Part shown: piece by piece, positions 3,816 to 60,218 of the stretch
Position numbering within the stretch: the stretch's first letter is position 1
How the letters are laid out: each line of letters begins with the position of its first letter
Source: Mycolicibacterium anyangense
Lineage (GTDB): Bacteria; Actinomycetota; Actinomycetes; Mycobacteriales; Mycobacteriaceae
Assembly (NCBI RefSeq): GCF_010731855.1
Contig: NZ_AP022620.1
Coordinates: 4,836,001 to 4,900,000 of the forward strand
Direction: 5' to 3'
DNA: 64,000 nt
Notes under the pieces: model-generated
The model's database searches: none
What the model was told of the DNA's origin: nothing
Seen by the model: only the letters and a program-made list of their open reading frames with translations
Made by a program: the position numbers and the translations under genes

Positions 3816-3833
3816 GCGGCTAGCGTGGAGGTT

Positions 3834-3925
3834 CGGCACGGGAGTCCCTGGAGCGGGACTGAGAGTGGAGGCCAAACCCCTCCAGACCGTCACCACCTGA
3901 TCCGGGTCATGCCGGCGAAGGGAAG
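3834..3925 (+). promoter_or_regulatory. TPP riboswitch (THI element) upstream of thiO-thiS-thiG
   Basis: The conserved parts of the thiamine pyrophosphate aptamer are visible: ACGGGAGTCC, GCGGGACTGAGAG, then ACCTGATCCGGGTCATGCCGG and CGAAGGGA. The CTGAGAG segment binds the pyrimidine and the GCCGGCGAAGG side binds the diphosphate. The thiO ribosome site (GAAAGGGA) starts immediately after the aptamer, so control is most likely by hiding the ribosome site when TPP is bound. The outer ends are approximate because they depend on stem P1. Confidence 0.93.
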
Positions 3926-3935
3926 CGAAAGGGAC

Positions 3936-4984
3936 ATGTCGGTGGAATCGCTGGCCGTCATCGGTGGCGGCGTGATCGGACTTGCTGTGGCACGTCGCGC
4001 CGCGCAGGCGGGGCTCGCGGTGCGGGTGCACCGCGAGGCTGCTCCTCCCCTGGGGCACGAGCGTAGCGAGCAGGGGGATCGATTCAAGGGGGCTTCCTGG
4101 GTGGCGGGCGGCATGCTTGCGCCCCGAAGCGAGGGCTGGCCCGGTGAGGACCAGCTGCTGACGATCGGTATCGAGTCGCTGCGGTTGTGGCACGGCGGGT
4201 TCCTCGATGGACTGCCCGACGATGTCGTGACCGCCCGCGAGACATTGGTGGTCGCCGTCGACCGGGCCGATGCCGCCGACCTGCGTACCGTCGCGGACTG
4301 GCTGGCCGCTCAGGGCCACCCGGTGGTCGCCACAACGGCCGCCCGCGACCTCGAACCGCTTCTGGCCCAAGGTATTCGGCACGGTTTCGTGGCCGGCGAC
4401 GAACTGGCCGTGGATAACCGCAAGCTGGTGGTGGCATTGGCCGCTGCCTGCGAGGAGCTCGGTGTGAGCTGGGCCGGACCGGTCGGCAGCGTCGAAGAGG
4501 CCCGTACCGGCGTGGACACCGTGGTGATCGCCAACGGGATCGACGCGCCCGCGCTGTGGCCTGGTCTGGCGGTACGGCCGGTCAAGGGTGAGGTGCTGCG
4601 GCTGCGGTGGCGGCCGGGTTGTATGCCGGTGCCGCGCCGGGTCATTCGCGCCCGGGTGCACGGCAGGCCGGTCTACCTGGTGCCGCGCGCCGACGGCGTG
4701 GTGGTGGGCGCCACCCAGTACGAGCACGGCCGGGACACCGCCCCGTCGGTCACCGGGGTGCGCGATCTGCTCGACGACGCCTGCGAGGTGCTGCCCTGCC
4801 TCGGGGAGTACGAACTGGCCGAATGCTCGGCGGGCCTGCGGCCGATGACACCGGACAACATGCCCATCGTCGGCCGCCTCGACGCGCACACCCTGGTGGC
4901 CACCGGTCACGGCCGATCGGGCTTCCTGCTGGCGCCCTGGACGGCCGAGCGGATGGCCGCCGAACTGCTGGTGGGTGCGCGGGT

Positions 4985-23741: not shown

Positions 23742-26160
<2,419 letters not shown>

Positions 26161-26162
26161 TC

Positions 26163-26256
26163 ACTCCCTACGCCGGCATTACCCGGACAGGTTCATACGG
26201 TCGACGGCACCGAACAGCCGTCCTCTCAGCGCACTTGGGTGTGCACTCCCGTGTGG
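26163..26256 (-). promoter_or_regulatory. TPP riboswitch upstream of thiC
   Basis: Read on the minus strand, the aptamer shows ACGGGAGTGC, GCGCTGAGAGG, then ACCTGTCCGGGTAATGCCGG and GCGTAGGGAGTG. These are the conserved cores of the THI element. The last GGGAG doubles as the thiC ribosome site, so TPP binding should hide it directly. Confidence 0.93.
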
Positions 26257-26309
26257 TTGGTATTCCGTCGCCCACAGTAGCCCACGGCGCTGGGGGTCCG
26301 CCGAGCCGT

Positions 26310-26368
26310 GAGTTTCACGTTTTGCGGCGGTCTACTCGACCTTTCGCTGCGAAACGTGAAATTGGGCG
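26310..26368. repeat. Left palindromic repeat of nuclease cassette 1
   Basis: A 59-base imperfect palindrome. TTTCACGTTTTGCGGCG (from 26313) pairs with CGCTGCGAAACGTGAAA at 15 of 17 positions, around the loop TCTACTCGACCTTT. It is repeated directly at 27291-27349 with 47 of 59 identical bases and no gaps. It lies between the thiC riboswitch and the nuclease-like gene. Confidence 0.9.
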
Positions 26369-26417
26369 ACGGAGCCGGCAGCGGAGCGTTGTCGGTGCCC
26401 GGTGACAGGCTCCCGTC

Positions 26418-27272
26418 ATGGCCAAGCGGGAGGTGTTCATCGGACGTGCGGCGCTGACGGATGGCCGGCTCACCAGGAGTGAGCTGACCCGTTGCTACCA
26501 GCCGCTTTTCCGTGGTGTGTACATGCCCAAGGACACCGATGTCACGCTGTGGGATCGGGTGAAGGCGGCGTGGTTGGCGACGGGCTGCCAGGCCGTGGTC
26601 ACCGGCGTGGCCGCATCCGGACTGTACGGCGCGAATTGGGTCGACGCCCACACCACCATCGAGCTGATATCGCCGCGGCATGCGCGTCCCCAGCCGGGTC
26701 TGGTGGTCCGGCAGGAGGCGATTGCACCGGATGAGGTCACCACGGTCGCCGGCATCCCTGTCGTCGTGCGTGCCCGGGCCGCATTCGATCTGGGCAGGCA
26801 CCTTGGACGCGCGGAATCGATCGCTCGGCTGGACGCGCTGATGCGCAACCAGCTGTTCTCCATCGAAGACGTGTCCTTGCTGGCCAAGCGGTATCCCGGA
26901 GCGCGCGGGCTGAAGCGGTTGGCCAACGTGCTGCCCCTCGTCGACGGCGGAGCGGCCTCACCGCAGGAGACCAGGTTGCGCCTGTTGTACATCGATGCCG
27001 GCCTCCCCCGTCCGCAAACCCAGGTACCGGTGTTCGACGGCAGGCGCGCGGTGCGGATCCTCGACCTGGGGTGGGAGCGGTTCCGGGTCGGCTCGGAGTA
27101 CGACGGCGACGTGCACCGCACCGACCGCCGCTCCTACGTGAAGGACGTGCGACTGCGCCCGATCCTGGAACGTCTCGGGTGGGCGGTTGATCATGTCATC
27201 AAGGAGGACCGCGATGACGAGATCGTCGAACGTACCCGGCGACATCTGCTATCGCGGGGCTGGAGACCCTGA
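26418..27272 (+). CDS. DUF559/AbiEi-like nuclease-family protein 1, flanked by palindromes
   Basis: A 284-residue protein. The N-terminal ~90 residues look like a winged-helix AbiEi-type domain (LTRSELTRCYQPLFRGVYMP, then LYGANWVDAHTTIELI). The C-terminal ~90 residues look like a Vsr/DUF559 PD-(D/E)xK nuclease fold (ILDLGWERFRVGSEYDGD, then VRLRPILERLGWAV). Candidate catalytic residues are the Asp of LDLGW and the Glu-Tyr-Asp of SEYDG. It is a distant paralog of the protein at 59330-60157, with the same domain order. Directly repeated palindromes of 59 bases flank it, 49 bases before the ATG and 18 bases after the stop. No antitoxin or toxin partner is adjacent. Function unknown. Confidence 0.8.
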   Translation: MAKREVFIGRAALTDGRLTRSELTRCYQPLFRGVYMPKDTDVTLWDRVKAAWLATGCQAVVTGVAASGLYGANWVDAHTTIELISPRHARPQPGLVVRQEAIAPDEVTTVAGIPVVVRARAAFDLGRHLGRAESIARLDALMRNQLFSIEDVSLLAKRYPGARGLKRLANVLPLVDGGAASPQETRLRLLYIDAGLPRPQTQVPVFDGRRAVRILDLGWERFRVGSEYDGDVHRTDRRSYVKDVRLRPILERLGWAVDHVIKEDRDDEIVERTRRHLLSRGWRP

Positions 27273-27290
27273 GCCGAGCGGCCCTGCCTC

Positions 27291-27349
27291 GAGTTTCACG
27301 TTTCGCAGGGATCTACTCGTACTTTCGGGGCGAATCGTGAGTTTCGGCG
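27291..27349. repeat. Right palindromic repeat of nuclease cassette 1
   Basis: The direct repeat of 26310-26368. It keeps GAGTTTCACGTTT, TCTACTCG, CTTTCG and CGAA-CGTGA, and forms a similar but weaker hairpin. Changes fall mostly in stems and flanks, while the loop is nearly unchanged. Confidence 0.9.
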
Positions 27350-27353
27350 CGGA

Positions 27354-27383
27354 TTGGCCTGGAAAGATTTGTATAGCTAACAT
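27354..27383 (+). promoter_or_regulatory. Probable promoter of the MFS exporter
   Basis: An unusually AT-rich patch with TTGGCC (27354-27359) and TAACAT (27378-27383), 18 bases apart. The rest of the 178-base gap holds the right cassette repeat and a ~60-base leader to GTG 27451. The segment TAACATATGCGTTA has TAAC/GTTA ends and could be part of an operator. Confidence 0.45.
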
Positions 27384-27450
27384 ATGCGTTATTGCGCCGT
27401 CGGCGCCCGCTGCTGCTACTGATCGATTGCTTACGAAACGAGACGTGCCC

Positions 27451-29175
27451 GTGACCACCGAGATTGACGCTGCCGAGATCGAGACCGACCGCCGCCGGCG
27501 GCGGATGGACCATGACCACCCGCACTACAAGTGGGTCGTGCTGTCCAACACCACGCTGGGCACCCTGCTCGCCACGATCAACTCCTCCATCGTCCTGATC
27601 TCGCTGCCTGCCATCTTCCGCGGTATCGGCCTGAACCCACTGGCGCCCGGAAATGTCAGCTACCTGCTGTGGATGCTGATGGGCTACCTGGTGGTCAGTG
27701 CCGTGCTGGTAGTCCCGTTCGGCCGGCTCGGCGACATGTTCGGGCGGGTCCGCATCTACAACATCGGCTTCGTGGTGTTCACCCTGTCGGCGATCGCGCT
27801 CTCGTTCGACCCATTCCAGCTCGACGGCGGAGCCATCTGGCTGATCGCCTGGCGGGTGGTTCAGGGTGTGGGCGGTGCGATGTTGATGACATCGTCCTCG
27901 GCGATCCTGACCGACGCCTTTCCGGCCAGCCAGCGCGGCATGGCTCTCGGCGTCAACATGGTTGCGGCAGTTGCCGGTTCGTTCCTGGGCTTGTTGATCG
28001 GCGGGGTGCTCTCCGAGATTCATTGGCAAGCCATCTTCTGGGTCGGCGTTCCCATCGGCATCCTCGGCACGGTGTGGAGCGTGTGCTCGCTCAAGGAGAT
28101 CGGCACCCGCAATCCCGGCCGGATGGACTGGGCCGGGACCGTCACCTTCGGTGTAGGTCTGACCGTCCTGCTGATCGGCATCACCTATGGCATCCAGCCC
28201 TACGGTGACTCCACCACGGGCTGGCTCAACCCGTGGGTGCTCGGTGCGATCATCGCCGGCATCCTGCTGCTGGTGCTGTTCTGCATCATCGAACTGCGAG
28301 TGGCCGAACCGATGGTGGACATCCGGCTGTTCCGGTCCGCGTCGTTCGGGATGGGCAACCTGGCCGGCCTGATGTCGTCGGTCGGCCGCGGCGGACTGCA
28401 GTTCATGCTCATCATCTGGTTGCAGGGCATCTGGCTGCCCCTGCACGGCTACAGTTTCGAATCCACCCCGCTGTGGGCCGGCATCTACATGCTGCCGATG
28501 ACGTTCGGGTTCCTGGCCGCCGCACCGATCGCCGGCTCGCTCGCCGACCGGTTCGGGGCCAGGCCGTTCACCGTCGGCGGCATGGTCCTGATGGCGCTGA
28601 CCTTCGTGGCGCTGGTGATGATCCCGGTCAACTTCAACTACTGGGTGTTCGCCGTGCTGGTGTTCCTCAACGGCCTGGGTGGCGGCATCTTCACCGCGCC
28701 CAACACCGCGGCCATCATGTCCAGCGTGCCGGCCGCCCAGCGGGGTGCCGCCTCCGGTGTGCGGTCCACCTTCTTCAACGCCGGCTCGTCGCTGTCGATC
28801 GGCATCTTCTTCTCGCTGATGATCGTCGGCCTGGCCGGCACTCTTCCGGAGACGATGAGCAAAGGCCTTCAGGACCAAGGTGTTTCGGCGTCGGTGGCGC
28901 ACGACATTGCCAACCTGCCGCCGGTCGGGAGTTTGTTCGCCGCGTTCCTCGGCTACAACCCGATCGCCGAACTCCTGGCGCCCTACCACGCGCTGAATCA
29001 ACCCGGGGTCAACGTCGAAGTGCTGACCGGTAAGACGTTCTTCCCGAACCTCATCACCGAGCCGTTCCACGCCGGACTGGTGGTCGTGTTCGGTGCTGCG
29101 GCGCTGATGATGGTGATCGGCGCGATCGCCTCGCTGTTCAACCCCGGCCGCTACGCCGAGGATCTCGCGGACTAG
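27451..29175 (+). CDS. MFS drug exporter, DHA2 (EmrB/QacA) family, 14 helices
   Basis: A 574-residue transporter with about 14 membrane segments. Motif A is GRLGDMFGRVRIYNIG after helix 2, and RVVQGVGGAMLMTSSSAILTD corresponds to motifs B and C. A second LADRFGARPFTVGG occurs in the C-half. A long loop near residue 480 (LPETMSKGLQDQGVSASVAHDIANLPP) is seen in actinobacterial members. It probably exports a drug or metabolite using protons. GTG 27451 is chosen among two close GTGs (27445, 27451). The N-terminus is highly charged (DRRRRRMDHDHPHYKW). No dedicated regulator gene lies beside it. Confidence 0.88.
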   Translation: MTTEIDAAEIETDRRRRRMDHDHPHYKWVVLSNTTLGTLLATINSSIVLISLPAIFRGIGLNPLAPGNVSYLLWMLMGYLVVSAVLVVPFGRLGDMFGRVRIYNIGFVVFTLSAIALSFDPFQLDGGAIWLIAWRVVQGVGGAMLMTSSSAILTDAFPASQRGMALGVNMVAAVAGSFLGLLIGGVLSEIHWQAIFWVGVPIGILGTVWSVCSLKEIGTRNPGRMDWAGTVTFGVGLTVLLIGITYGIQPYGDSTTGWLNPWVLGAIIAGILLLVLFCIIELRVAEPMVDIRLFRSASFGMGNLAGLMSSVGRGGLQFMLIIWLQGIWLPLHGYSFESTPLWAGIYMLPMTFGFLAAAPIAGSLADRFGARPFTVGGMVLMALTFVALVMIPVNFNYWVFAVLVFLNGLGGGIFTAPNTAAIMSSVPAAQRGAASGVRSTFFNAGSSLSIGIFFSLMIVGLAGTLPETMSKGLQDQGVSASVAHDIANLPPVGSLFAAFLGYNPIAELLAPYHALNQPGVNVEVLTGKTFFPNLITEPFHAGLVVVFGAAALMMVIGAIASLFNPGRYAEDLAD

Positions 29176-42682: not shown

Positions 42683-45576
42683 CGGACCGCCACCTTCGCC
42701 GGTGCCTCGGCCATCTCGACGTCGATGCGGGCGCCGAGGCTGCGCAGCACGTCGAGGACCAGTCCCACCACGATCAGGTACACCCCGAGGTCGAAGAACA
42801 GGGCGGTGACGAACTTGACGGTGCCGAGCAGGGGGACGTCGAGTGTGACCACCGCCGAGGACAGCACCGGAGCGCCCAGCAGCATCGAGGCCACCGCAGT
42901 TCCCGCCGACAGCACGAGGCCGAAGCCCAGGATCTTGCCCGCGTCCAGTGGCAGCGTCTCGCCGAGTTCGTAACGGCCGCCCGCCAGATAGCGCAGCACC
43001 AGGGCCAGCCCGGCCGTCAGCCCGCCGGCGAACCCGCCGCCGGGGGTGTTGTGGCCGGTGAAGAAGAAGTACACCGACAGCACCATGATGAGCGGGAAGA
43101 TCAGGCGGGTGGCCACCTCGAGCACCAGCGAGCGGTAGCGGGGGTCACGTAGTTCGCTGCCCCGAAGCCAAGTGGTGTCGCTGACCGCCGGGCTGTACGG
43201 AAGCGGTGGCAGCTGGCCGATGTCGGGCTGACCGGCATCGGAAACCCTTGGCGCCGAACCGAATCGGCGGTTGCGGAACACCAGCGACGCGACCCCGGTC
43301 GCGGCGACCACCAGCACCGATATCTCGCCGAGGGTGTCCCAGGCGCGGATGTCGACCAGCAGCACGTTGACGGTGTTGGCGCCGTGGCCGCGGAAGTAGG
43401 CGGCGTCGGGCAGCAGCTCGGCGATTCCGGTGGTGCTGCGGGCCGCCTTGGCGAACACCGCCAATGTGGTGACCGTTGCACCCACCGCCAGGGCGATCAG
43501 CACCTTGGGCAGTCGGTACCGCTTGGCCGCCGCCTCTTCAGCTTCGGCGGGCAGGGTCCGCAGCACCAGCACGAAGATGACCAGCGTGAGGGTTTCCACC
43601 AGGAACTGGGTGAGCGCCAGGTCGGGGGCGCCGTGCAGGGCGAAGATCACGCCGCAGCCGTAGCCGGTGATGCCCACCAGCAGCACTGCCGCCAACCGGT
43701 TGCGCATCACGGTCGCCGCCACCGCGGCGGCCAGGATCAGCAGGCCGACCACGGGTTGTATGGGGGAGTCCCACAATCGGAAATTCGGGCGGTCACGGGT
43801 ACCGAAGATCAGGACCGTAATGGGAAGCAGCACCAGGGTGGCCAGGATGACCGACTGCGTGACCGGGATCGACCCGCGCTGGGTGACCGCCGTCAGACGG
43901 ACCGAGAGCACGTCGGCACCACGGATGATCGCGTCGTACACCCGGTCGGCGTTGGCCAGCGGCCGGTAGCGGCCCAGCCGGGCCCGCTGCAACCGGTCGC
44001 GTCCGAAGAATGCCAGCACACCGACGGTGAGGACAAGAGCCGACAGCGCCACCGGCAGTCCGAACCCGTGCCACAACTCCAGGGTGTATCCGCCGTCGGC
44101 GGCGCCTGCGGCGGGCAGGCTGTCGGCGTAGTCGTCGAGGGTGTGGTCCAGCGGGCTGGGCACCAGCCCGAAGAACAGACCAGCCGCGGCCAGGATGGCG
44201 GGGGAGACCAGGAAGGCCGCTGCCGGCCGGTGCAGGTTGGCCACCAGCGAACTCGGACCCTGAAAACCCTTGCGCGCGAAGGCTCCCCACAGAAAACGCA
44301 GACTGTAGACGGTGGTGAACACCGACCCCGCGACCACTCCGGCCAGCACGACCGGAGCCCACGGTCCGAGTGACTCGCTGTGGGCGAGGGTCTCGAAGTC
44401 GGCTTCTTTGGCGACGAAGCCGAGGAAGGGCGGCAGGGCCGCCATGCTCGCGGTGGCCCCGGCGGCGATGACGAACAGCACCGGCATCCGCTGACCCAGC
44501 CAGGCCAGCCGCCGGATGTCGCGGGTGCCGGTGGAGTGGTCGATGACGCCGACCACCATGAACAGCGTCGCCTTGAACAGAGCGTGGGCACACAGCATGG
44601 CCAGGCCGGCGAGCATCATGTCCTGCCCGCCGGCGCCCACCATCACCGAGATGAACCCGAGTTGACTGACGGTGCCGAAGGCCAGGATGAGTTTGAGGTC
44701 ATTCTCGCGCACGGCGCGCCAGCCGGCCAGCAGCATGGTGACAATGCCCAGGGTGATGACCGTCGGCCGCCACCCGGGTGAGTCGGCGAAGCCGGGCGTA
44801 AGCCGGGCGATCAGGTAGACGCCGGCTTTGACCATGGCGGCCGCGTGCAGGTAGGCGCTGACCGGGGTGGGTGCGGCCATGGCGCCGGGAAGCCAGAAAT
44901 GGAAGGGCACCAGGGCCGACTTGGAGACGGCGCCGACGAGCACGAGCACGACGCCGATCGCGACAGCGGTGCCGTGCGGCGGTGCGGCCACCAGTTCGGA
45001 GAGCAGGTAGGTCCCGGAGTAGTGGCCGAGGATGACGATGCCGACCAGCATCGCCAGCCCGCCCGCGGTGGTGACCAGCAGCGCCTGCATCGCGGCGCGT
45101 CGGCTGGTGGCACGCTCGGCGTAGTGGCCGACGAGCAGGAACGACAACACCGTGGTCAGTTCCCAGAACATGTAGAGCAGCAGCATGTTGTCGGCGACCA
45201 CCAGGCCGAACATGGCCCCGGAGAACCCGACCAGTTCGGCCGCGAAGCTGGGTAGCCGGTTTTCGGTGTGGCCGTCGCGGTGGTGGAAGTACTCCGCGCA
45301 GTAGAACAGCACCAGCGCACCGATGGCCAGGACCAGCACGCTCATCACCGCCGCGAGGGTGTCGAAGCGCAGCGTGATGTTCATCGACAGTTCGGGCACC
45401 CACGGGATGTCGACGGTGGGCACCGGACCGCCAGCGGGTGGCCAGTTCAGTACCACCCAGCTCAGCGATGCTGCCGGTACGAGTGCCAGAGGGTAGAAGG
45501 CCAGCCGTCCCCAGCGGTGCACGAGGACCGGCGCCACGGCGGCGGCGATCGCGTGCGCGAGCAGGATGACGAGCAT
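42679..45576 (-). CDS. mrpA: MrpA-MrpB fusion, Na+/H+ antiporter subunit
   Basis: A 965-residue subunit uniting MrpA (NuoL-like, residues ~1-790) with MrpB (residues ~810-950). Visible are AEYFHHRDGHTENRLPSFAAEL, FWELTTVLSFLLVGHY (Glu), SKSALVPFHFWLPGAMAAPTPVSAYLHAA (Lys), NDLKLILAFGTVSQLGF, APDLALTQFLVETLT and the MrpB part NTPGGGFAGGLTAGLALVLRYL. The complex exchanges Na+ or other monovalent cations for protons. It is the first gene of the operon. The 212-base gap upstream to 45788 holds its promoter region and a hairpin. Confidence 0.93.
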   Translation of the reverse strand: MLVILLAHAIAAAVAPVLVHRWGRLAFYPLALVPAASLSWVVLNWPPAGGPVPTVDIPWVPELSMNITLRFDTLAAVMSVLVLAIGALVLFYCAEYFHHRDGHTENRLPSFAAELVGFSGAMFGLVVADNMLLLYMFWELTTVLSFLLVGHYAERATSRRAAMQALLVTTAGGLAMLVGIVILGHYSGTYLLSELVAAPPHGTAVAIGVVLVLVGAVSKSALVPFHFWLPGAMAAPTPVSAYLHAAAMVKAGVYLIARLTPGFADSPGWRPTVITLGIVTMLLAGWRAVRENDLKLILAFGTVSQLGFISVMVGAGGQDMMLAGLAMLCAHALFKATLFMVVGVIDHSTGTRDIRRLAWLGQRMPVLFVIAAGATASMAALPPFLGFVAKEADFETLAHSESLGPWAPVVLAGVVAGSVFTTVYSLRFLWGAFARKGFQGPSSLVANLHRPAAAFLVSPAILAAAGLFFGLVPSPLDHTLDDYADSLPAAGAADGGYTLELWHGFGLPVALSALVLTVGVLAFFGRDRLQRARLGRYRPLANADRVYDAIIRGADVLSVRLTAVTQRGSIPVTQSVILATLVLLPITVLIFGTRDRPNFRLWDSPIQPVVGLLILAAAVAATVMRNRLAAVLLVGITGYGCGVIFALHGAPDLALTQFLVETLTLVIFVLVLRTLPAEAEEAAAKRYRLPKVLIALAVGATVTTLAVFAKAARSTTGIAELLPDAAYFRGHGANTVNVLLVDIRAWDTLGEISVLVVAATGVASLVFRNRRFGSAPRVSDAGQPDIGQLPPLPYSPAVSDTTWLRGSELRDPRYRSLVLEVATRLIFPLIMVLSVYFFFTGHNTPGGGFAGGLTAGLALVLRYLAGGRYELGETLPLDAGKILGFGLVLSAGTAVASMLLGAPVLSSAVVTLDVPLLGTVKFVTALFFDLGVYLIVVGLVLDVLRSLGARIDVEMAEAPAKVAVR

Positions 45577-59247: not shown

Positions 59248-59303
59248 ACTGTGGGCCTTATGCACAGGTTCAGGCCGAAATCCGTACACGAGGCCCACGC
59301 TCG
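59248..59303. repeat. Left palindromic repeat of nuclease cassette 2
   Basis: A 56-base imperfect palindrome. GTGGGCCTTATGCAC is mirrored by GTACACGAGGCCCAC, with the central part GGTTCAGGCCGAAATCC. It is repeated directly at 60163-60218 with 41 of 56 identical bases and the same length. It starts shortly after the groEL2 terminator. Confidence 0.88.
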
Positions 59304-59329: not shown

Positions 59330-60157
59330 ATGGAACTCATCATTGGTAGCGCGGCGGTGCGCCGTGGCGACATCACTCGACGCGGGCTCGCCCGCCATTA
59401 CCTGCCCGTCTTTCGCGATGTGTATCTGCGGCGCGATGTCCAGATGACAGCACAACTCCGCGCACGTGCTGTGTGGCTGTCCACCGGCGCCACGGTGTGC
59501 GGTCTCACGGCCGCCGCCGCTCTGGGGACCAAGTGGCTCGATCCGTCGGTGCCGGTGGAAATCCTTCGCGCGGACCGCCATGCCGCAGCGGGCATGGTCG
59601 TCCGGTCATGGACTGTGCTGCCCGACGAAGTGTGTCTGGTCGCGAGCATCCGAGCCACCACGCCCGCTCGGACGGCATTCGATATCGGGCGGCTACTTCC
59701 GCAACCTGTACCGATCCTTGACGCACTGTTGAATGCCACCGGAGTGTCGGTAGCCGACGTCGCTGAACTCGCTCGTCGGCACCCGGGGAGCCGTGGCGTC
59801 GCGAAACTTCGGAGTGCACTTGAGCGGGTCGACGGTGGCGCCGAATCACCGCAAGAAAGCAAGCTGCGGCTCATCCTGGTCGATGGCGGACTGCCGGTAC
59901 CAGAAACGCAGATAATGTTCCGCGATCTGCGTGTTCGTGTCGATATGGGTTGGCGGGAATGGAAGGTCGCCGTCGAATACGACGGCGTACAGCATTGGAA
60001 CGACAGGCGGCAGCGGTCGTGGGATATCGAGCGGATCGCGCTACTCGAAGCGGCGGGCTGGGCGGTGGTGCGGGTCAGCGCCGAGATGATGGGACGCCCG
60101 CATGTCATCGTCGAGCGTGTTCGCGCCAAACTTCGCGCGGCAGGCTGTCCGGTCTAG
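59330..60157 (+). CDS. DUF559/AbiEi-like nuclease-family protein 2, flanked by palindromes
   Basis: A 275-residue protein with the same plan as 26418-27272. The AbiEi-like N-terminus is ITRRGLARHYLPVFRDVYLRRD, then LTAAAALGTKWLD. A middle part includes ATTPARTAFDIGRLLP. The C-terminal Vsr/DUF559-like part is VRVDMGWREWKVAVEYDGVQ, HWNDRRQRSWDIERI and LLEAAGWAVVRV. VDMGW and VEYDG carry candidate acidic residues. ATG 59330 lies 26 bases after the left palindrome, and the stop lies five bases before the right one. The gene stands alone between groEL2 and an amidohydrolase. Its biochemical role is unknown. Its codon use is less GC-biased than its neighbours. Confidence 0.8.
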   Translation: MELIIGSAAVRRGDITRRGLARHYLPVFRDVYLRRDVQMTAQLRARAVWLSTGATVCGLTAAAALGTKWLDPSVPVEILRADRHAAAGMVVRSWTVLPDEVCLVASIRATTPARTAFDIGRLLPQPVPILDALLNATGVSVADVAELARRHPGSRGVAKLRSALERVDGGAESPQESKLRLILVDGGLPVPETQIMFRDLRVRVDMGWREWKVAVEYDGVQHWNDRRQRSWDIERIALLEAAGWAVVRVSAEMMGRPHVIVERVRAKLRAAGCPV

Positions 60158-60162
60158 CGACG

Positions 60163-60218
60163 ACTGTGGGCCTCATGTACAGATCTCGGCGAATTCCCGT
60201 ACTTAAGGCCCACACTCG
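60163..60218. repeat. Right palindromic repeat of nuclease cassette 2
   Basis: The direct repeat of 59248-59303. GTGGGCCTCATGTAC pairs with GTACTTAAGGCCCAC at 13 of 15 positions around AGATCTCGGCGAATTCCC. The remaining ~100 bases to 60321 show no gene. Confidence 0.88.

Follow-up and report, generated by a model that had tools for sequence, protein, structure and literature searches.

REP-type repeats are the best-known example of short palindromes that are maintained and dispersed by the gene they surround, in their case a Y1 transposase. Every RAYT gene lies between two inverted REPs, gene and repeats co-evolve, and base pairing within the REPs is preserved (Nunvar et al. 2010, PMC2817692). 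RAYT genes change quickly but their orthologs stay at the same position; how many REPs there are depends on the cognate RAYT, and in some genomes the REPs gather near the gene (PMC2817692). Inverted repeats are also the operators of AbiEi antitoxins: the S. agalactiae protein binds two inverted 23-bp repeats with a 3 bp gap, and Rv2827c binds 23-bp repeat pairs with a 13 bp gap in its own promoter (PMC7319586). PafBC governs a RecA-independent DNA-damage regulon (PMC8151990, PMC6789036, PMC8223512), and its M. tuberculosis motif is TGTCGG-N10-TA-N3-T, with variants (PMC8151990).

We analyzed a window of 64,000 nucleotides from Mycolicibacterium anyangense, in which a predicted nuclease gene lies between two similar palindromes (cassette 1, Table 1). 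Our main reading, given a probability of about 0.5, is that cassette 1 is one copy of a large Mycobacteriaceae gene family encoding AbiEi-nuclease fusions that act at their own sites in a REP-RAYT-like manner. The 59-base repeats reported in a preliminary description of the window do flank the gene and share 47 of 59 bases, and its placement of the unit between the thiC riboswitch and an exporter gene was confirmed. In direct orientation, the similarity continues over 69 nt at 77% identity (26300–26368 / 27281–27349). Local similarity across the cassette 1 gene scored 37, a value reached by 17 of 3000 windows of gene size drawn at random from this genome. The repeat pair is more than chance, and its strongest support comes from the pairs seen at other paralogs and loci. 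A second TPP riboswitch is present in the window at 3828–3940 on the plus strand.

Table 1. Positions of the two cassettes and neighboring features within the window.
Feature	Position	Strand	Remark
Left (upstream) palindrome, cassette 1	26310..26368	+	register from 63-row alignment
Half-sites of left palindrome, cassette 1	about 26309–26329 and 26345–26365	+	~22 nt each
Centre of left palindrome, cassette 1	ACTCG 26334–26338, CTTT 26341–26344	+	
PafBC/RecA-NDp-like promoter motif TGTCGG-N10-CAGGCT	26390..26411	+	spacing per PMC8151990
Cassette 1 gene, AbiEi-like and Vsr/EDxHD nuclease-like parts	26418..27272	+	284 aa
Right (downstream) palindrome, cassette 1	27291..27349	+	direct orientation
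Centre of right palindrome, cassette 1	ACTCG 27315–27319, CTTT 27322–27325	+	
thiC TPP riboswitch	26148–26262	-	left of cassette 1
MFS gene (PF07690)			downstream neighbor, right of cassette 1
Left palindrome, cassette 2	59248..59303	+	different site sequence
Cassette 2 gene	59330..60157	+	275-aa paralog, 44% identical (tblastn)
Right palindrome, cassette 2	60161..60218	-	best match to left copy inverted

The M. anyangense genome encodes 13 paralogs, the cassette 1 gene included. All 60 genomes drawn from the genus carried between 2 and 19 family genes, and a family gene (E<=1e-25) was found in 85 of 101 genomes drawn from the Mycobacteriaceae, in 28 of 31 genera. We gathered 146 loci, set aside 4 that were too short or unclear and removed 53 as redundant, keeping 89. 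With pairing defined as an upstream/downstream similarity score of at least 20, a similar site pair brackets the gene in 69 of the 89 non-redundant loci; the proposed unit of gene plus two repeats therefore recurs. Pairs were seen at 11/13 own loci, 10/15 from the genus search, 33/42 from named genomes and 15/19 from other genera. Besides cassette 1, this amounts to 10 of 12 other own paralogs and 58 of 76 other non-redundant loci. The same score was reached in 19/1200 and 48/3000 random gene-sized windows, and in 29/703 mismatched flanks, which include related loci. The 69 pairs were direct in 44 cases, inverted in 15 and assignable to either in 10. No pair was found at 20 of the 89 loci, the own paralogs L017 and L018 among them.

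Site sequences differ between subfamilies, and each subfamily has its own site at its own gene. Median site similarity was 0.80 within the same gene (n = 61) and 0.42–0.51 between different genes at 20–65% protein identity. Enzyme and site diverge together. Core length is 56–67 between the 10th and 90th percentiles (median 61), and 42 of 127 sites have ACTCG at the centre on one strand or the other, vs 5.7 expected from shuffles. At four loci (L018, L020, L023 and L024) the downstream palindrome lies partly or wholly within the reading frame and encodes the C-terminal tail of the protein; the best downstream hairpin begins before the stop codon ends in 37 of 63 loci.

Predicted fold comparisons supported the earlier assignment of an AbiEi-like N-terminal part (residues 1–176) and a Vsr/EDxHD nuclease-like C-terminal part (residues 179–283). 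Foldseek alone gave no match at E<=0.001 (best 1zel, 1.9e-3; 3r3p, 0.18), and by sequence the nuclease-like part matched 3r3p weakly (E 0.066). The candidate catalytic residues E184, D216, E227, D229 and D243 are invariant in the 13 paralogs, and purifying selection acts on the gene. Specificity could not usefully be mapped to single residues: one position, R163, exceeded the permutation limit (0.247 vs 0.203), which is too little to use. As a separate observation, the 13-paralog profile gives a weak match to a TAL-effector (AvrBs3) chain at residues 118–171 (E 2e-5), with no stretch passing alone; R163, the sole residue tracking site sequence, falls within this region.

The repeats had initially been described as imperfect hairpins. 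An inverted repeat is clear in the left copy (17-nt arms, 88%; RNA fold z -4.1 against single-base shuffles) and weaker in the right one (z -1.9), but the hairpin did not hold up as a conserved feature. By eye the arms were suggestive (CACGTTT/AAACGTG vs CACCTTT/AAAGGTG); in a 15-row alignment, one of 13 pairs had changes on both sides. Across 63 family-1 sites, 289 cells were paired at nine variable pairs vs a shuffle mean of 287.5 (sd 7.1), so pairing at the variable arm positions is at the level of shuffled columns. These rows had been aligned to the structure of the model, a bias towards pairing, and showed no pairing excess even so. A hairpin or cruciform was rejected as the selected feature because the site halves vary independently. 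In the L025 family the 30 half-sites are 91% identical and the centres 43%, and halves within one palindrome are no more alike than halves from different palindromes. The family-1 centre keeps ACTCG and CTTT.

These data bear on a reading of the palindromes as bidirectional terminator hairpins or RNA structures that flank the gene by chance. The sites are indeed palindromic, downstream copies lie near stop codons and some solo copies sit between convergent genes. However, no terminator-like site with a T run was found in 26200–27500, pairing is unconstrained, and the sequence itself, beyond its shape, is shared and gene-specific. We consider this explanation highly improbable.

The site architecture instead resembles an operator. 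The published arrangement of 23 + 13 + 23 bp (PMC7319586) totals 59 bp, equal to the site size found here. Site similarity tracks the AbiEi-like part given the nuclease part (partial r 0.26 for residues 1–55 and 0.34 for residues 56–176); for the nuclease part given the AbiEi-like part, the values were 0.07 and -0.01. Permutations were run for the 0.26 and 0.07 values. From the operator geometry and this tracking we infer that two monomers occupy the two half-sites of ~22 bp, each binding through its AbiEi-like part. Recognition of the cognate site by this part is probable.

A promoter motif was sought with the pattern TGTCRG-N10-[TC]ANNNT, accepting T or C at the first -10 base. Of 70 mycobacterial loci, 35 have a PafBC-like motif immediately upstream of the start codon, cassette 1 among them, and in 28 of these 35 it lies exactly 6 nt before an in-frame start. 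The remaining 35 mycobacterial loci and all 19 loci of other genera gave no match. Controls yielded 8/4000 matches in random windows, 0/70 on the opposite strand and 0/70 downstream. Cassette 1 resembles the PafBC regulon in motif, placed 6 nt before its ATG, and in spacing, and differs in a -10 element starting with C (PMC8151990). Three of the 13 own paralogs carry the motif, all with C rather than the published T as the first -10 base. DUF559 is absent from the main text of PMC8151990. The only other PafBC-like match in the window is at position 44045 on the minus strand. No SOS box with at most one mismatch to the consensus was present at the 70 loci, and a sigma-70 consensus scan of 26200–27500 returned no promoter.

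The palindrome ends 0–35 bp before the motif (median 5) in the 25 loci where both could be placed. Lying directly before the promoter (by 21 bp in cassette 1), the upstream site would serve as an autoregulatory operator. The natural reading of motif-bearing copies is a damage-induced, autoregulated, leaderless gene, and damage-inducible expression of these copies is fairly likely.

The junction at thiC was then compared between species. thiC was present in 51 of 60 genus genomes, and the best 30 of these loci were examined. Five of the 30, our own included, carry the gene with both palindromes. The G018 locus has one palindrome and no gene, and the G009 locus has neither; both the empty and the one-palindrome junctions that the preliminary description had proposed to look for thus exist. 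Eight further loci have the exporter beside thiC, and the five junctions inspected among them all lack gene and palindrome. No exporter match was found at 15 of the 30 loci. Flanks at the thiC locus are about 80% identical, too low to judge target-site duplication.

Orthologs (E<=1e-140) were found in 18 of 396 genomes, all 18 at the thiC junction and three with the gene inverted. Relative to thiC, the palindromes point the same way in all 18 (the model detected 33/36 at 1e-7; better-scoring strand taken), and the inversion is thus confined to the segment that they enclose. The inversion may reflect crossing over between facing half-sites, and the lone palindrome could have arisen by loss through recombination between the repeats. 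The cassette looks stable and vertically inherited. The suggestion that it is currently mobile was abandoned, given that 18 of 18 orthologs occupy one junction.

The same locus invites comparison with a homing-endonuclease-like selfish gene, in which a lone palindrome in a gene-less allele would be cut and repair would copy the whole cassette in. Consistent with this are the predicted EDxHD homing endonuclease fold, the fixed position, the occurrence of both solo and empty alleles there, and a patchy distribution (the 18/396 genomes above). The protein also diverges faster than its neighbor (82–85% identity vs 88–93% for the exporter N-terminus, at the four other gene-bearing loci in the first 60 genomes). 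However, the sites are intact on both sides, so that an occupied allele would be cut too. One genome holds 13 gene-less solo sites of a single family, and no confirmed relative was found in phage records or viral contigs. Homing of this kind appears improbable. Phage or plasmid carriage was considered separately and rejected: 33 pattern-matching stretches in viral contigs included none that was confirmed, phages gave 0, and plasmids gave 6 distant matches. Of the plasmid matches, H1, H3 and H4 are distant DUF559-annotated relatives on three Tsukamurella plasmids.

Solo sites were searched for two families, family 1 and L025, and found for both, following a check suggested in the preliminary description. 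The M. anyangense genome holds 4 family-1 solo sites. Its L025 family comprises 15 full sites (2 at the gene and 13 elsewhere) plus 3 single half-sites; a reversed control pattern gave 1 match. Counts of L025-type half-sites across 118 genus genomes, uncorrected for kinship, ranged from 0 to 141, the maximum in one genome. The median was 25 in the 30 genomes with an ortholog at E<=1e-100 (24 with at least 8, six with fewer). It dropped to 2 in the 43 weaker-match genomes (7 with at least 8; p 0.39 vs no match) and to 1 in the 45 with no match at 1e-80 (10 with at least 8). Site copy number mostly follows the cognate gene, with exceptions. Repeats beside unrelated genes, initially regarded as evidence against the unit, do occur, but they are members of that same family of sites, and their abundance tracks the cognate gene, as is true of REPs.

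This dependence bears on the possibility that the repeats are non-autonomous elements moved by an unrelated transposase, with the nuclease gene adjacent by chance. Dispersed copies, reaching 141 half-sites, would fit. Each subfamily's site is found at its own gene, however, and copy number follows that gene. We disfavor this explanation and give it next to no weight.

With the family-1 covariance model, 30 sites scored above 58 bits; they lay in 6 of 60 genomes, the five that carry the gene and the one that has a lone palindrome at thiC. The model had been built on 15 sites from those same genomes, so this result is partly circular. Weaker matches in 40 further genomes include sites of other families. 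Family-1 solos occupy the same places in relatives as in M. anyangense and, being at orthologous positions between species, are old. No fresh solo-site insertion was seen. Of the 30 best orthologous loci, 14 have the solo site L012, 12 of them in genomes among the 18 gene-bearers and 2 in others; the 16 loci without it include two from the gene-bearing 18. By parsimony L012 was gained inside the gene-bearing clade and then kept. At one solo location the site persists without the gene in G018 and G285.

Several further observations concern individual solo sites. At the L012 location in G150, G024 and G321 (L238, L241 and L242), a partial second copy of the 3' half follows, by eye. In G129 (L250) the family-1 palindrome is missing there and a palindrome-like stretch of another family seems, by eye, to occupy the gap. 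The L025 sites of the M. anyangense genome, at 14 locations with the gene counted once, fall within one arc covering 34% of the chromosome (chance about 1e-5 under uniform placement). A search for the origin of replication by short peptide motifs gave no match, and the clustering is stated without reference to it.

A purely regulatory role was also weighed. The product would be a nuclease for repair or defence, induced by damage, and the palindromes only operators: the upstream site would repress, the downstream site and solos would form a small regulon or serve in tethering, and solos would arise by ordinary rearrangements and be kept by selection. The operator geometry, the upstream site's position close before the promoter motif, the old, orthologous and retained solos, the conserved L025 half-sites with drifting centres, and the purifying selection on the gene all agree with it. 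Against it, most genes have a downstream copy without obvious regulatory need, and a rough ORF heuristic places 5 of 13 L025-family solos between the ends of convergent genes. Nor does it readily account for a range of 0 to 141 half-sites within one genus or for the ACTCG and CTTT kept in the family-1 centre. We regard a purely regulatory role as unlikely, though still a serious contender.

Under the preferred reading, that of a fusion protein acting at its own sites, DNA damage would lead to production of the nuclease, which would be carried to all cognate sites and would nick or cut near the conserved centre. Repair or copying at the cut might occasionally duplicate the site elsewhere, giving solo copies, invert the gene between its sites, or delete the gene and leave one site. 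The system would work much as REP-RAYT does, with another enzyme and with double-stranded operator-like sites in place of hairpins. We give even odds to nuclease action at the sites. That the nuclease causes their spread is more doubtful, falling somewhat short of an even chance. More tentatively still, the family may be an amplification system of its own kind, in which a damage-induced AbiEi-nuclease fusion multiplies its 57–60 bp sites across actinobacterial chromosomes without a transposase. The 13 co-resident genes would then have mutually distinct specificities that co-diverge with their sites. If so, a second, unrelated solution exists throughout a bacterial family, and gene-repeat alliances arise repeatedly. 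It would also offer a natural set of dozens of nuclease/site pairs of different specificities, tied to the mycobacterial DNA-damage response, in which the question of an enzyme spreading its own sites is directly testable.

Among the papers listed in searches of CC-licensed PMC full text, none described the system, none combined DUF559 with mycobacteri* and none contained any of six short site strings. Among described proteins, AbiEi antitoxins and Rv2827c, of type IV toxin-antitoxin systems, share the N-terminal fold and an upstream arrangement of inverted 23-bp repeats separated by 3 or 13 bp (PMC7319586). They differ in that the fold is here fused to a nuclease-like part and the sites also lie downstream and dispersed. 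No nucleotidyltransferase toxin gene (AbiEii) is present beside cassette 1, whose neighbors encode ThiC and an MFS protein. Vsr and the EDxHD homing endonuclease I-Bth0305I share the predicted fold of residues 179–283, whereas the sequence match is weak (3r3p, as above) and the DNA-binding domain is another. The recognition-like sites here are not interrupted by the gene, although the nuclease's actual target may be another sequence.

The likeness to REP-RAYT systems raised in the preliminary description was strengthened by the dispersed solo copies and by a copy number that depends on the cognate gene. Both systems have two cognate palindromes bracketing the gene, further copies scattered outside genes whose number depends on the cognate gene (here with exceptions), and co-divergence of enzyme and repeat (PMC2817692). 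In both, orthologs are fixed in place, the enzyme evolves faster than its neighbors and copies may cluster on the chromosome (PMC2817692). In contrast to REP-RAYT, the nuclease part is Vsr/EDxHD-like rather than a Y1 (IS200/IS605-like) tyrosine transposase, the flanking copies are mostly direct, and compensatory pairing is absent. The sites are arranged like AbiEi operators, and those of family 1 have a centre that is conserved and asymmetric. Because enzyme, orientation rule and compensatory pairing differ, the cassette is not a member of the REP-RAYT group. It looks, provisionally, like a previously undescribed counterpart of the REP-repeat systems, made from unrelated parts.
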